A stretch of DNA of 64,000 bases from Flavobacterium johnsoniae UW101 (GTDB taxonomy: Bacteria; Bacteroidota; Bacteroidia; Flavobacteriales; Flavobacteriaceae), in the NCBI RefSeq assembly GCF_000016645.1, contig NC_009441.1, forward strand, positions 3,410,001 to 3,474,000, in the 5' to 3' direction. Within the stretch, counting starts at the first letter, position 1; every line of letters begins with the position of its first letter. The notes beneath the pieces were generated by a model. That model was not told the DNA's origin. It was given only the letters and a program-made list of their open reading frames with translations, and searched no databases. The translations under genes and the position numbers were made by a program. Shown one piece after another: positions 44,929-48,317 of the stretch.

Positions 44929-47094
44929 ATGATTAGTATTACCGAAAAAACATTACAAGACTTACAATTTCCAACCGTACTTGAAACCATTTCAGATGGA
45001 TGCAATACCGATATTGGAAAAGAAAAAGCTTTACAAATAAAACCATTTAGAAATAAAGAAGAATTAATACAGTCGCTGATGCAGACTTCAGAATATGTTT
45101 CTTCTTTTCAAAATAATAACGCAATTCCAAATCACGGATTTGATGCCATAACTCATGAAATTAAATTTCTGGCTATTCAAGACAGCTTTCTTGAAGTAGG
45201 AAGTTTTAGAAAAATTGCAAATCTTGGTGCAACAACAAATGTCTTATTAAATTTCCTGAAAAAGTTTGATGATTATTATCCAAACTTAAATGTAAGAGCT
45301 TCAAGAGTAGAATTGACCAAAGACATCATAACAGCAATTGATGCCATTGTAGATAAATACGGAGAAATAAAAGACAACGCCTCTCCTGCTCTAGCCGGAA
45401 TTCGTCAGAACATGAATTTAGTTCGTGGCAAAGTAAATCAAAGTTTTGGTTTAGCGCTGACTCAATACAACGGCTTAGGATATCTGGATGATATAAAGGA
45501 AAGCTTTGTACAAAATCGTAGAGTTCTAGCAGTTTTAGCAATGTATCGCCGTAAAGTAAAAGGTTCTATTTTAGGAAGTTCGAAAACCGGAAGTATTGCT
45601 TATATAGAACCAGAAGCTACTTTAAAGTATTCTAGAGAATTAGCCAATTTAGAATACGAAGAAAAAGAAGAGATTACGCGAATATTAAAAAATTTATCAA
45701 ACGTAATTCGTCCTTATCTTCCTTTGTTAATCGAATATCAGGAGTTTTTAAGTGATATTGATGTAGTTGCTGGAAAAGCAAAATATGCTAATCGCATTAA
45801 CGGAATTCTTCCAGCAATAACAGAAGAAAGGCGATTATTTTTTAGAGAAGCGTATCATCCAATTTTGTATCTAAATAATAAACAGAAAAAAGAAGTTACG
45901 CATCCGCAGACCATAGAGTTAAAACAAGAAAACAGAATTATTGTAATTTCTGGTCCAAATGCTGGAGGAAAAACTATTTCGTTAAAAACGGTCGGTTTAT
46001 TGCAATTAATGCTGCAATCTGGAATTTTGATTCCGGTTCACGAACGCAGCGAGACTTTCTTATTTGACAGAATCCTGACTGACATTGGGGACAACCAATC
46101 TATTGAAAATCACTTAAGTACTTATAGTTACCGATTAAAAAACATGAATTACTTTTTAAAGAAATGTAATAACAAAACCATGTTTTTAATTGACGAATTT
46201 GGTACAGGTTCTGATCCCGAACTTGGTGGAGCTTTAGCTGAAATTTTCTTAGAAGAATTTTATCATCGAGAGGCATTCGGAATTATTACAACACATTATT
46301 CTAATTTAAAAATTCTAGCAAACGAATTACCATACGCAACAAATGCGAATATGATGTTCGATGAAAAATCACTTGAGCCAATGTACAAACTGGCTTTGGG
46401 TCAGGCTGGAAGTTCGTTTACTTTTGAAGTAGCTCAGAAAAATGGAATTCCGTTTGGATTGATCAATCGTGCGAAAAAGAAAATCGAAGTTGGAAAAGTT
46501 CGTTTTGACAAGACCATTGCAACACTTCAAAAAGAGCGTTCAAAACTGGAAAAAACTTCTTTAAATTTAAAAGAAGAAGAAACCAGAGCTCGTGAAGAAA
46601 GTAAAAAGATGGAAAACATCAATACTAAAATTCAGCAGAAACTGGAAAGCTATCAAGAATTATACGACAGTAACCAGAAGATTATATATATAGGACAAAA
46701 AATTGATGATATAGCTGAAAAATATTTCAACAACAAAAACAAAAAAGAGCTTATTGGTGAATTTTTGAAAATTGTTGAGATCGAAAACTCTAAACGTAAA
46801 AAAGCAACTCCGAAAGAAGCTAAAGCAAAAGTTGAAAAACAAAAAGAAATTATTGCCGAAGTACAAGTAAAAGTTGAAGAAATTCGAAAAGAGAAAAAAG
46901 AGAAGAAATTAAAGCCGGTTATTGAAAAACCAAAACCAATTTTAAAAGTTGGTGATCGAGTAAGAATGCTTGATGGAAGATCTGTTGGTAGTATTGATAT
47001 AATTGAAAAAAATAAAGCAACAGTAAATTATGGCCTATTTACCTCAAAAGTAAGTTTGGACGAATTGGAATTAGTAGAAGCTGTTAAAAAATAA
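44929..47094 (+). CDS. mutS2: MutS2-family ATPase lacking the Smr nuclease domain
   Basis: 721 residues. MutS core and lever helices (about 1-320), ABC-type ATPase (Walker A GPNAGGKT at 342-349, LIDEFGTGSDPELGGALAEIF Walker B/signature, TTHY switch), long coiled-coil (about 515-660) and a C-terminal KOW-like domain (VGDRVRMLDGRSVGSIDII). It ends there; the Smr endonuclease domain of Firmicutes MutS2 is absent. Roles in recombination control or ribosome rescue are known for the family; which applies here is unclear. Confidence 0.92.
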   Translation: MISITEKTLQDLQFPTVLETISDGCNTDIGKEKALQIKPFRNKEELIQSLMQTSEYVSSFQNNNAIPNHGFDAITHEIKFLAIQDSFLEVGSFRKIANLGATTNVLLNFLKKFDDYYPNLNVRASRVELTKDIITAIDAIVDKYGEIKDNASPALAGIRQNMNLVRGKVNQSFGLALTQYNGLGYLDDIKESFVQNRRVLAVLAMYRRKVKGSILGSSKTGSIAYIEPEATLKYSRELANLEYEEKEEITRILKNLSNVIRPYLPLLIEYQEFLSDIDVVAGKAKYANRINGILPAITEERRLFFREAYHPILYLNNKQKKEVTHPQTIELKQENRIIVISGPNAGGKTISLKTVGLLQLMLQSGILIPVHERSETFLFDRILTDIGDNQSIENHLSTYSYRLKNMNYFLKKCNNKTMFLIDEFGTGSDPELGGALAEIFLEEFYHREAFGIITTHYSNLKILANELPYATNANMMFDEKSLEPMYKLALGQAGSSFTFEVAQKNGIPFGLINRAKKKIEVGKVRFDKTIATLQKERSKLEKTSLNLKEEETRAREESKKMENINTKIQQKLESYQELYDSNQKIIYIGQKIDDIAEKYFNNKNKKELIGEFLKIVEIENSKRKKATPKEAKAKVEKQKEIIAEVQVKVEEIRKEKKEKKLKPVIEKPKPILKVGDRVRMLDGRSVGSIDIIEKNKATVNYGLFTSKVSLDELELVEAVKK

Positions 47095-47409
47095 GTTTTC
47101 TGGCTCAGTCGCAGTTTTTCAGACTTAAAAAATGCTCTAAAAAAACACAAAATTAAAATAAAGCGATTTAAGGAGTTATTTTTTATTTTACACAAAAGAA
47201 GATTCCTTTTTCTTAAAAACTGTTTTAAAACAATTTATAAAAACCATTTTCAATTAATTAAAATTATCAATTAAATAAAATCAATAACAAATATTTATAA
47301 ATAATAAAAAACTTACAAAAAATATTTTCGTTAGTTTTGTCATTGCGAGGAACGAAGCAACCACACTAAGTATAATCGTTCTCCAAATTCACAAAATTTA
47401 AAAGAGAAT
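47095..47409. other. 315-bp spacer with left inverted repeat of the GIY-YIG unit
   Basis: Begins with CTGGCTCAGTCGCAGTTTTTC words (47100-47125), then about 200 bp of A/T-rich non-coding sequence, then the 22-bp repeat at 47339-47360 and a 49-bp stretch leading to the GIY-YIG start. I see no ORF in it. Confidence 0.6.
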
Positions 47410-47769
47410 ATGAAACCTGGATTTGTATACATTATAACAAACAAATATCAAACAGTAGTATATGTTGGAGTAACATCAAATCTCCCCAAAAGAATCTTAG
47501 AACATAAAAACAAAAAATATCCTAAATCATTTTCTGCAAAATATAATCTCAACATTCTGGTGTACTACGAACAATTTCAATGGATTGAAGATGCAATTTC
47601 AAGAGAAAAACAAATAAAGGCAGGATCTAGAGAAGCAAAAAATAATTTAATACGTTCTATAAATCCAAAATGGGAAGATCTATTTGATGAAATAGAAAAT
47701 ATAATGACTATGTAACAATAAAATTGTAATGGAAAAACATCGTGAGATTGCTTCGTTCCTCGCAATGAC
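47339..47769. mobile_element. Candidate element: GIY-YIG gene between 22-bp inverted repeats
   Basis: 47339-47360 (core CATTGCGAGGAACGAAGCAA) and 47748-47769 are perfect 22-bp inverted copies framing a single 101-aa GIY-YIG nuclease gene, 431 bp overall. The right copy also supplies the ATG of the next gene. The repeat resembles the CATTGCGAGGAACGAAGCAA family I recall as dispersed in Bacteroidota. No target-site duplication is obvious. Calling it mobile is inference. Confidence 0.5.
47410..47715 (+). CDS. Stand-alone GIY-YIG nuclease-family protein
   Basis: 101 residues, single-domain URI/GIY-YIG fold: FVYIITN (GIY strand) and VVYVGVTSNLPKRILEHKN (YIG strand, helix Arg and His), FSAKYNLNILVYYEQF, catalytic-metal Glu region IEDAISREKQIKAGSR, and the terminal INPKWEDLFDE. 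All active-site positions seem intact, so it may cut DNA. Members of this short family are often found beside dispersed repeats; here it is enclosed by perfect inverted copies. Confidence 0.9.
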   Translation: MKPGFVYIITNKYQTVVYVGVTSNLPKRILEHKNKKYPKSFSAKYNLNILVYYEQFQWIEDAISREKQIKAGSREAKNNLIRSINPKWEDLFDEIENIMTM

Positions 47770-48172
47770 TGCAAAAAATAAAAAAATAGTTCTTTTTGAC
47801 GGAGTTTGTAACCTCTGCAGTTCTGCGGTTCAATATATCATCAAACACGACAAAAAAGATATTTTTAGATTTGTAGCACTGCAATCAGAATTGGGAATTT
47901 CTATTTGCAAACATTTAGGAATCAGTTTTTCTAAAATGGATAGTATTATTTTGTATGATCCTGGAACAGCATATTTTTATAAATCTTCTGCGGTTATTGA
48001 AATAGCCAGAAATTTTGGCGGACTTTGGAAGATTGTTCCAATTTTTCGAATTGTTCCAATTTTCATTAGTGACAGAATTTATAATTATGTTGCAAAAAAC
48101 AGATACAATTGGTACGGTAAAAAAGAAAGCTGTATGATTCCAACTCCAGAATTGAAATCTAAGTTTCTTTAA
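47765..48172 (+). CDS. DUF393 / DCC-family thiol-disulfide oxidoreductase-like protein
   Basis: 135 residues from ATG 47765. N-terminal DGVCNLCSS is the DxxCxxC signature of the DCC (DUF393) family. Further conserved regions are FVALQSELG, the SIILYDPG strand, and the C-terminal ...YNYVAKNRYNWYGKKESCMIP. The start codon lies inside the right inverted repeat; an in-frame ATG at 47729 would add a repeat-encoded tail and was rejected. Ends before a bidirectional terminator. Confidence 0.88.
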   Translation: MTAKNKKIVLFDGVCNLCSSAVQYIIKHDKKDIFRFVALQSELGISICKHLGISFSKMDSIILYDPGTAYFYKSSAVIEIARNFGGLWKIVPIFRIVPIFISDRIYNYVAKNRYNWYGKKESCMIPTPELKSKFL

Positions 48173-48215: not shown

Positions 48216-48317
48216 TTGTCATTTCGACGAAGGAGAAATCTTCGCAAGTAACTCCGTTCCAATAAGCCAATCTTTGTAGAGCTACTCGTGGAGATTTCCC
48301 CTTCGTCAAAATGACAA
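48216..48317. repeat. Palindromic dispersed-repeat unit (GTCATTTCGACGAAGG family)
   Basis: Left arm 48216-48242 (GTCATTTCGACGAAGGAGAA core) and right arm about 48290-48317 (TTCCCCTTCGTCAAAATGAC core) are imperfect inverted copies around a 48-bp centre. From memory, this word is a common interspersed repeat in flavobacteria. Different in sequence from the neighbouring 22-bp repeats. Confidence 0.75.

Follow-up and report, generated by a model that had tools for sequence, protein, structure and literature searches.

Why should the gene for a 101-aa nuclease stand alone between two inverted copies of a short repeat, and does the nuclease serve the repeat that surrounds it? The locus lies in the window, a stretch of 64,000 nucleotides corresponding to bases 3,410,001-3,474,000 of the 6,096,872-bp Flavobacterium johnsoniae UW101 chromosome. 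A sequence-only reading of the window had claimed exact inverted copies at 47339-47360 and 47748-47769 with a single gene between them, and both claims hold. The copies agree over 22 bp (GTCATTGCGAGGAACGAAGCAA) and are the sole matches to this sequence in the window at up to three mismatches (0 expected from 100 shuffles), and the only ORF reported between them carries a Pfam GIY-YIG domain (E 2.6e-15). The arms had been drawn too short: the 22-bp copies are exact, but a conserved inner part, YCNCAYTAA, was missed, and the arms reach 33 bp at 88% complementarity. The features are collected in Table 1, where the upstream neighbour is presumably mutS2, a name taken from that first reading.

Table 1 Features of the repeat-bracketed nuclease locus (window positions).
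Feature	Position	Strand	Remarks
mutS2 (presumed), upstream neighbour	44929..47094	+	C-terminus used to locate the equivalent site in relatives
Whole unit, inverted REP - GIY-YIG gene - REP	47339..47769	.	431 bp
Left REP unit	47339..47367	+	GTCATTGCGAGGAACGAAGCAACCACACT; GTC tag outward
Short GIY-YIG nuclease gene	47410..47715	+	101 aa; single domain spanning full length
DCC1-like (DUF393) gene, downstream neighbour	47729..48172	+	
Right REP unit, inverted	47741..47769	-	GTC tag outward; overlaps 5' end of DCC1-like ORF
Second inverted GTC-tagged pair, other family	48218..48315	.	GTCATTTCGACGAAGGAGAAATC / GTCATTTTGACGAAGGGGAAATC; gene-less inside

The earlier account also needs correction at the right arm, which falls within the first codons of the DCC1-like ORF; these codons are the right REP read in frame (MEKHREIASFLAMT). 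In relatives without the unit, the DCC1-like gene has a short native start, e.g. MESLPKNKK, and at one locus (L151) a decayed repeat is apparently fossilised as coding sequence at the DCC1-like start. The family of the second inverted pair brackets GIY-YIG genes in other Flavobacterium genomes (e.g. L082 and L087). It looks like an orphan repeat family here, since the two GIY-YIG relatives found in this genome at E 1e-3 or better belong to other subfamilies.

The protein has the features of an intact nuclease domain. Across 41 aligned sequences, Y7, Y18, G20, H32, E66, K70, R74 and N85 are among the invariant residues and R28 is nearly so; we assume for the conserved GIY-YIG residues the catalytic role that they have in I-TevI. 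The predicted structure forms a single compact domain that finishes with the C-terminal helix (mean pLDDT 93.6, pTM 0.86), and no additional DNA-binding region is seen in this 101-aa, single-fold model. By sequence profile the closest solved relatives are the UPF0213 structures 1zg2 (E 3.9e-12, positions 4-84) and 1ywl (4.6e-9), with weaker matches to T4 endonuclease II and SLX1 (E 0.005-0.008). The label "UvrC-like orphan" given to such proteins therefore fits less well than a place in the UPF0213/YhbQ/YazA-like GIY-YIG branch. An NCBIfam intron-endonuclease model matches below its cut-off only, and defence-system models match two of three proteins weakly (E 0.001-0.004) and the third not at all. 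The window gene is under strong purifying selection, with a median dN/dS of 0.064 (17 intact orthologs, 136 pairs, 12 of them with saturated dS); several other copies of the gene contain stops. At E 1e-5 the protein has 3321 relatives, the best named ones from Flavobacterium. The phage collection held no match to the window protein; 33 contigs of the viral collection (L241-L273) encode relatives, 27 of them at E 8e-21 or better.

An interspersed repeat is expected to recur around the chromosome, as had been suggested for the core of this one. The core was found in 28 chromosomal places at no more than one mismatch (19 exact), against 0 for a reversed control pattern of the 18-base core. When aligned, the 28 copies start sharply (G in 28/28, T in 28/28, C in 26/28, A in 27/28); the bases preceding this GTCA are A/T-rich only, with no fixed sequence, and conservation persists to about base 26-29. 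Eleven inverted pairs of 72-93 bp are listed in the genome, with outward tags, GTCA...TGAC ends and unrelated spacers; of the places viewed, only 47339-47769 was seen to have a gene between its arms. No clear target-site duplication was detected at the ends of the 11 pairs or of the window unit, where direct repeats amount to 0-2 identical bases in the pairs and 1 in the unit. In silico, one inverted pair reaches -27.1 kcal/mol, compared with -6.2 for its shuffles. Single REP units of the window form weak structures, in which a 4-5 bp stem and a 10-base loop do not outdo shuffled sequence; the units of Neisseria and Azospirillum have an 8-bp stem and a 4-base loop. The window protein's subfamily is single-copy in the genome. 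A second short GIY-YIG gene, at 274,202-274,522 of the chromosome, encodes a protein 35-36% identical to the window protein, and it too is bracketed by inverted GTC-tagged repeats, of another family. That both short GIY-YIG genes of this genome are repeat-bracketed suggested a rule, which was then tested on other loci.

For each locus, the best ungapped inverted repeat was sought between the 300 bases before the start codon and the 300 bases after the stop codon (plus the last 40 of the gene), scored +1/-2 with a threshold of at least 14, and windows of identical layout taken from other parts of that locus served as controls. Loci were the best 30, 40 or 80 matches per search, and a few are shared between sets (L030 and L274 are one gene, as are L104 and L362). 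Within the genus, inverted repeats enclose the short GIY-YIG gene at 53 of the 71 listed loci, against 0/2839 control windows (18/71 have no flanking pair at the chosen score); a recount without L030 and with more reference proteins gave 51/70. A second subfamily, typified by L030, scored at 25/30 listed loci (5/30 without a pair) against 0/600 control windows, three of the 25 being untagged. The result extends to named loci from other phyla, a set spanning Planctomycetes, Chloroflexi, Patescibacteria groups, Omnitrophota, Nitrospinae, a Rickettsiales bacterium and many Proteobacteria: 55/72 loci with full flanks score (60/80 with truncated flanks included; 17/72 without a pair) against 8/1600 controls, and 54 of these 55 carry a GTCA- or CGTC-type tag. 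Among phylum-wide best matches, 15/26 full-flank loci score (15/29 overall; 11/26 without a pair) against 0/520 controls. Plasmid-collection loci score at least 14 in 10/15 cases (5/15 without a pair) against 46/840 control windows, a high control rate because those loci contain further repeats.

The flank result is robust to flanks of 100 to 500 bases (50/77 at 100 bases). Chance and a cis-acting terminator were considered as causes of the flanking repeats and are ruled out by the same-locus windows and by an unrelated 130-aa gene of the window (DUF4258), which has flanking inverted repeats in 1/30 loci. Other GIY-YIG genes of this genome scored 8-10 at five loci, a weak control in that frames or flanks were wrong in at least three. 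Adjacent duplicate or tandem short GIY-YIG genes were seen at G289:C1:206020 and 212471, at G047:C63:96737 and 97643, and at G281:C86:45030-46140; some duplicate copies score equally, and repeats surround the G289 copies.

A GTC-tagged unit was recovered from 137 of the 146 loci scoring at least 14, by a script that looks for GTC, which favours this outcome. The median length of these REP-gene-REP units is 430 bp (n=137), close to the 431 bp of the window unit. AT directly follows GTC in 93/137 units, and in 78/137 a stem of at least 5 bp starts at this AT (shuffled mean 1.5, largest 7). Tags point outward in 75 of the gene-bearing units and inward in 10, and 52 are undecided.

An enzyme dedicated to its repeat is expected to be matched to it. 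Several repeat families stand beside GIY-YIG genes in Flavobacterium (TTGTCATTGCGAGG.ACGAAGCAATC, TTGTCATTCCGTAGGAATC, TTGTCATGCTGTCAAGCATC, TTGTCATTTCGAC..AGGAGAAATC and GTCAGGCTGAGCGAAGTCGAAGCC), and others do so in Sinorhizobium (CGTCATCCTCGGGCTTGACCCGAGGATCCA), Sphingobium (CGTCACCCCGGGCTTGACCCGGGGTC) and Neisseria (CGTCATTCCCGCG.AGGCGGGAATC), the last of which we take to be dRS3. The more alike two of the proteins are, the more alike are their repeats (Mantel r 0.49 over 134 loci, 0/2000 permutations). The correlation holds within three of four sets (r 0.53, 0.46 and 0.36, each 0/2000 permutations), and in the plasmid set (n=10) r is 0.31, a value reached in 84/2000 permutations. Across phyla, the closest Flavobacterium protein had above-average repeat similarity in only 38/69 cases. 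Joint descent can explain part of the match between protein and repeat.

Copy number likewise tracks the matching GIY-YIG subfamily, in line with the earlier expectation. Among 199 genus genomes, at least five repeat copies are present in 31 of the 39 that hold a relative at or above ~59% identity and in 40 of the 160 that do not, with median copy numbers of 15 and 1, respectively; two fragments fall on either side of this split (62 residues in G031, counted among the 39, and 61 residues in G145, among the 160). In 247 Bacteroidota genomes unselected for the gene, a short GIY-YIG gene was found in 38/44 with a dRS3-like repeat and in 75/203 without; it was not found at E 1e-10, the gene threshold used, in the other 6/44 (the 38/6/75/128 table was counted by hand). 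Eleven of the 12 Bacteroidota genomes with at least 10 dRS3-like copies have the gene. A degenerate repeat pattern occurs in 2-221 copies in 20/20 named genomes, which were chosen for having the gene, and its reversed control in none. At one locus (L334, G130:C1:2482500-2502400), nine same-direction repeat copies lie among small ORFs over ~18 kb, out of 14 same-direction copies in that genome, 13 of them within ~112 kb; the locus looks like a cassette-array island.

If the unit has been gained or lost as a whole, empty sites are expected in relatives, and they were observed in Azospirillum, in Sphingobium and at the mutS2-DCC1 position. In Azospirillum lipoferum, sufB and sufC are separated by the gene, which has a full REP dimer on either side; in A. 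ramasamyi, A. oryzae and Azospirillum sp. B510, sufB-sufC has neither gene nor repeats, with flanks 94.7-96.5% identical. Sphingobium plasmids TomMM15 and TomMM7A carry a unit between fnrL and a response regulator, and TomTYG72 and TomTYG65 have the site without it. TomTYG74 (L158, near 930-965) has at this site a single palindrome with a CGTC tag at both ends, possibly the footprint of a deletion between two repeats, a suggestion drawn from this one case. Three 50-kb Sphingobium plasmid stretches share the same four family repeats; one other pair differs, not cleanly. A GTTCGGGCTGAGCCTGTCGAA-type inverted pair near kaiC was seen in Sphingobium plasmids L342 and L343 and is absent from L341.

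At mutS2-DCC1, 30 loci were examined, of which 12 are filled, 1 holds a remnant and 17 lack the gene; among these 17, two retain the window repeat (L150 and L153), one has the apparently decayed repeat (L151) and 14 carry none of it. Relatives of at least 72% identity lie away from DCC1 in at least seven genomes (G005, G017, G051, G061, G110, G156 and G179), and three of these seven reach the flank score. This is an old position for some members of the genus, and it has seen gain or loss. Protein identities (e.g. 96% for GIY-YIG against 69% for DCC1, L129/L154) suggested that the GIY-YIG gene had moved horizontally between clades at mutS2; we make no such claim, because in DNA comparisons mutS2 equals the GIY-YIG gene in conservation and it is DCC1 that stands apart. 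The sequence-only reading had held that genes at conserved positions without flanking repeats would speak against its proposal; the position is indeed often conserved, but the repeats are usually present.

These repeats resemble a class already described. Di Nocera et al. (2013) divide REPs into GTAG and CGTC kinds and, in the portions of their survey on which we draw, associate transposase genes with the GTAG kind only, stating that CGTC-tagged REPs "apparently lack a dedicated transposase" (PMC3733652). The same portions give CGTC-tagged REPs an unpaired CGTC or TGTC tag at one end, an 8-9-bp stem that in most units opens with A and T, a 4-5-base loop and a mostly head-to-head pairing, and count dRS3 of Neisseria and RPE-4/RPE-6 of Rickettsia among them (PMC3733652). 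The window unit begins with TGTC ahead of a stem that starts ATTGC, with A and T first, and the 11 outward-tagged pairs of the genome are head to head. Since its units lack the 8-9-bp stem and the 4-5-base loop, we call the window repeat CGTC-REP-like rather than a strict member. CGTC-REPs also have a 3-base tail, mostly CCA; many proteobacterial units here end in CCA, whereas Flavobacterium units continue with YCNCA. Hosts named in the survey excerpts include Neisseria, Azospirillum lipoferum, Sinorhizobium meliloti and Novosphingobium aromaticivorans (PMC3733652), and here a GIY-YIG gene was found between such repeats in them. We thus report a partner gene where the survey, in the parts cited, reports no associated transposase gene (PMC3733652).

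The explanation that we favour, at a probability of roughly 70%, is that the GIY-YIG protein serves as dedicated enzyme to the repeat family around its gene, and that small nucleases of this kind are, across bacteria, the missing partners of the CGTC/TGTC-tagged REP super-family, in an arrangement like that of RAYT and REPINs with an unrelated enzyme. It draws on the association of gene and repeat, its breadth, the matching of families, the sharp repeat ends and the filled and empty sites. The likeness to RAYT/REPIN systems lies in short, tagged, palindromic and mostly intergenic repeats, often in inverted pairs of ~70-90 bp, in a partner gene that lies between inverted repeats, is usually single-copy and old and is outnumbered by its repeats, and in the lack of a clear target duplication. 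The new element is the enzyme: a GIY-YIG nuclease is bracketed instead of a Y1/HuH transposase, and the Y1 loci checked are without this repeat type. Further differences are the tag, which is (C/T)GTC, or GTC(A) in this genome, instead of GTAG, and the weak 4-5-bp stems and 10-base loops of Flavobacterium REPs. Terminal inverted repeats, a seemingly autonomous unit and shorter gene-less derivatives also recall MITEs and small insertion sequences, but the unit contains no DDE or Y1 transposase and the end direct repeats of pairs and unit are 0-2 bases, unlike those of DDE-type elements.

Homing offers a different account of the same anatomy. REP pairs would arise by other means, and the GIY-YIG gene, by cutting gene-less repeats, would be copied into them during repair, so that the repeats are its target and not its ends. 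GIY-YIG is a classic homing nuclease domain, and the window protein shares with such enzymes, whether of group I introns or free-standing, a catalytic domain with conserved motif residues. Gene-less repeats do occur at the mutS2-DCC1 locus (L150, L153 and, decayed, L151), the A. lipoferum gene sits between two complete REP dimers, and many genomes have repeats but no close relative of the gene. Against this, the clean empty sites are repeat-free (14 mutS2-DCC1 loci, the three Azospirillum genomes, TomTYG72 and TomTYG65), which indicates that gene and repeats often arrive or vanish together. Moreover, unlike homing endonucleases of this type, the single-fold protein has no separate DNA-binding domain and no intron or intein, and its gene is flanked by a dispersed inverted repeat family. 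We consider homing unlikely. It is less likely still that a RAYT/Y1 transposase encoded elsewhere moves the repeats with the GIY-YIG gene as a passenger. The genome does have seven Y1_Tnp matches, and at least five repeat copies occur in 61/144 genus genomes with Y1 against 10/55 without (p 0.0016; as the genomes are related, p values here overstate significance). However, the GIY-YIG effect holds both with Y1 (27/32 vs 34/112) and without it (4/7 vs 6/48), the logistic coefficients being 2.38 for GIY-YIG and 0.78 for Y1 with genome size in the model. Only 2/20 Y1 loci have such flanks, of other sequence, and the window repeat was found at none of the four Y1 loci checked among this genome's seven. 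Two of these four (L405 and L403) are flanked, within 400-bp stretches, by other inverted repeats of their own, so that this genome appears to house a RAYT-type system alongside the GIY-YIG one. In the portions cited, the 2013 survey likewise saw no CGTC repeats on both sides of a transposase gene (PMC3733652).

A third account would make the protein a housekeeping nuclease that trims or clears REP hairpins or cruciforms stalling replication, with flanking repeats that autoregulate the gene or are merely tolerated, and no role in spreading. Strong purifying selection, a stable position in part of the genus, the strong folding of inverted pairs and kinship with YhbQ, YazA and SLX1, which are grouped together in a review (PMC7017083), all agree with it. 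It sits poorly with the joint absence of gene and repeats at several sites, the variation of the repeat family with the protein and the recurrence of units at unrelated places across phyla, and a pure guardian would not predict its own gene between the repeats. We rate it about as improbable as a RAYT mover.

For the dedicated-enzyme reading, a four-step course may be proposed, in which REP - nuclease gene - REP would be the autonomous unit and the scattered 72-93 bp inverted pairs its non-autonomous derivatives. Where the DNA is single-stranded or supercoiled, a REP or an inverted pair would form a hairpin or cruciform, as the strong in silico folding of pairs suggests. The protein would then bind its own REP family and nick near the GTC tag at the hairpin foot, a step proposed from its kinship to structure-selective nucleases of the YhbQ/YazA/SLX1 group; its similarity to the UPF0213-like proteins extends over the domain (1zg2). 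We know of no repeat association for YhbQ or YazA themselves. Repair or replication of the cut end would copy the REP pair to another site or to a pair-less allele, with the gene rarely copied along and no clear target duplication left. Vertical descent and selection would keep the gene while the repeat population turns over, in agreement with the observed selection and old positions. The RAYT/REP analogy drawn at the outset accordingly holds for anatomy and less well for mobility: the unit does not appear to jump freely, because its subfamily is single-copy, 12/30 mutS2-DCC1 loci share its position and dN/dS is low. Repeat-rich genomes without the gene (e.g. the 40/160 above) also speak against easy mobility.

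A broader proposal, to which we give even odds, is that selfish or semi-domesticated repeats across bacteria are driven by GIY-YIG nucleases, a hairpin-specific enzyme of about 100 aa nicking tagged REPs that host repair then copies. If true, this would be a chemistry of repeat spreading distinct from those of DDE, HuH/Y1, tyrosine and serine transposases, and dRS3 of Neisseria, RPE-4/RPE-6 of Rickettsia and the repeats that many genomes have annotated as short basic peptides would belong to one system with swappable nuclease-repeat families. In the open PMC literature, outside which subscription papers and preprints lie, we found no paper linking GIY-YIG genes with REPs. CGTC-tagged REPs are among the commonest short bacterial repeats, and a candidate enzyme matched to their families, with a range from Bacteroidota to Proteobacteria, Planctomycetes, Chloroflexi and candidate phyla, makes the question of their missing transposase testable. 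It would give a role to many short proteins annotated as "GIY-YIG nuclease family protein" or "putative endonuclease", and RAYT would be joined by a repeat-maintaining nuclease, an independent second solution. Small GIY-YIG nucleases appear to be the partner that a large class of bacterial repeats has been lacking.
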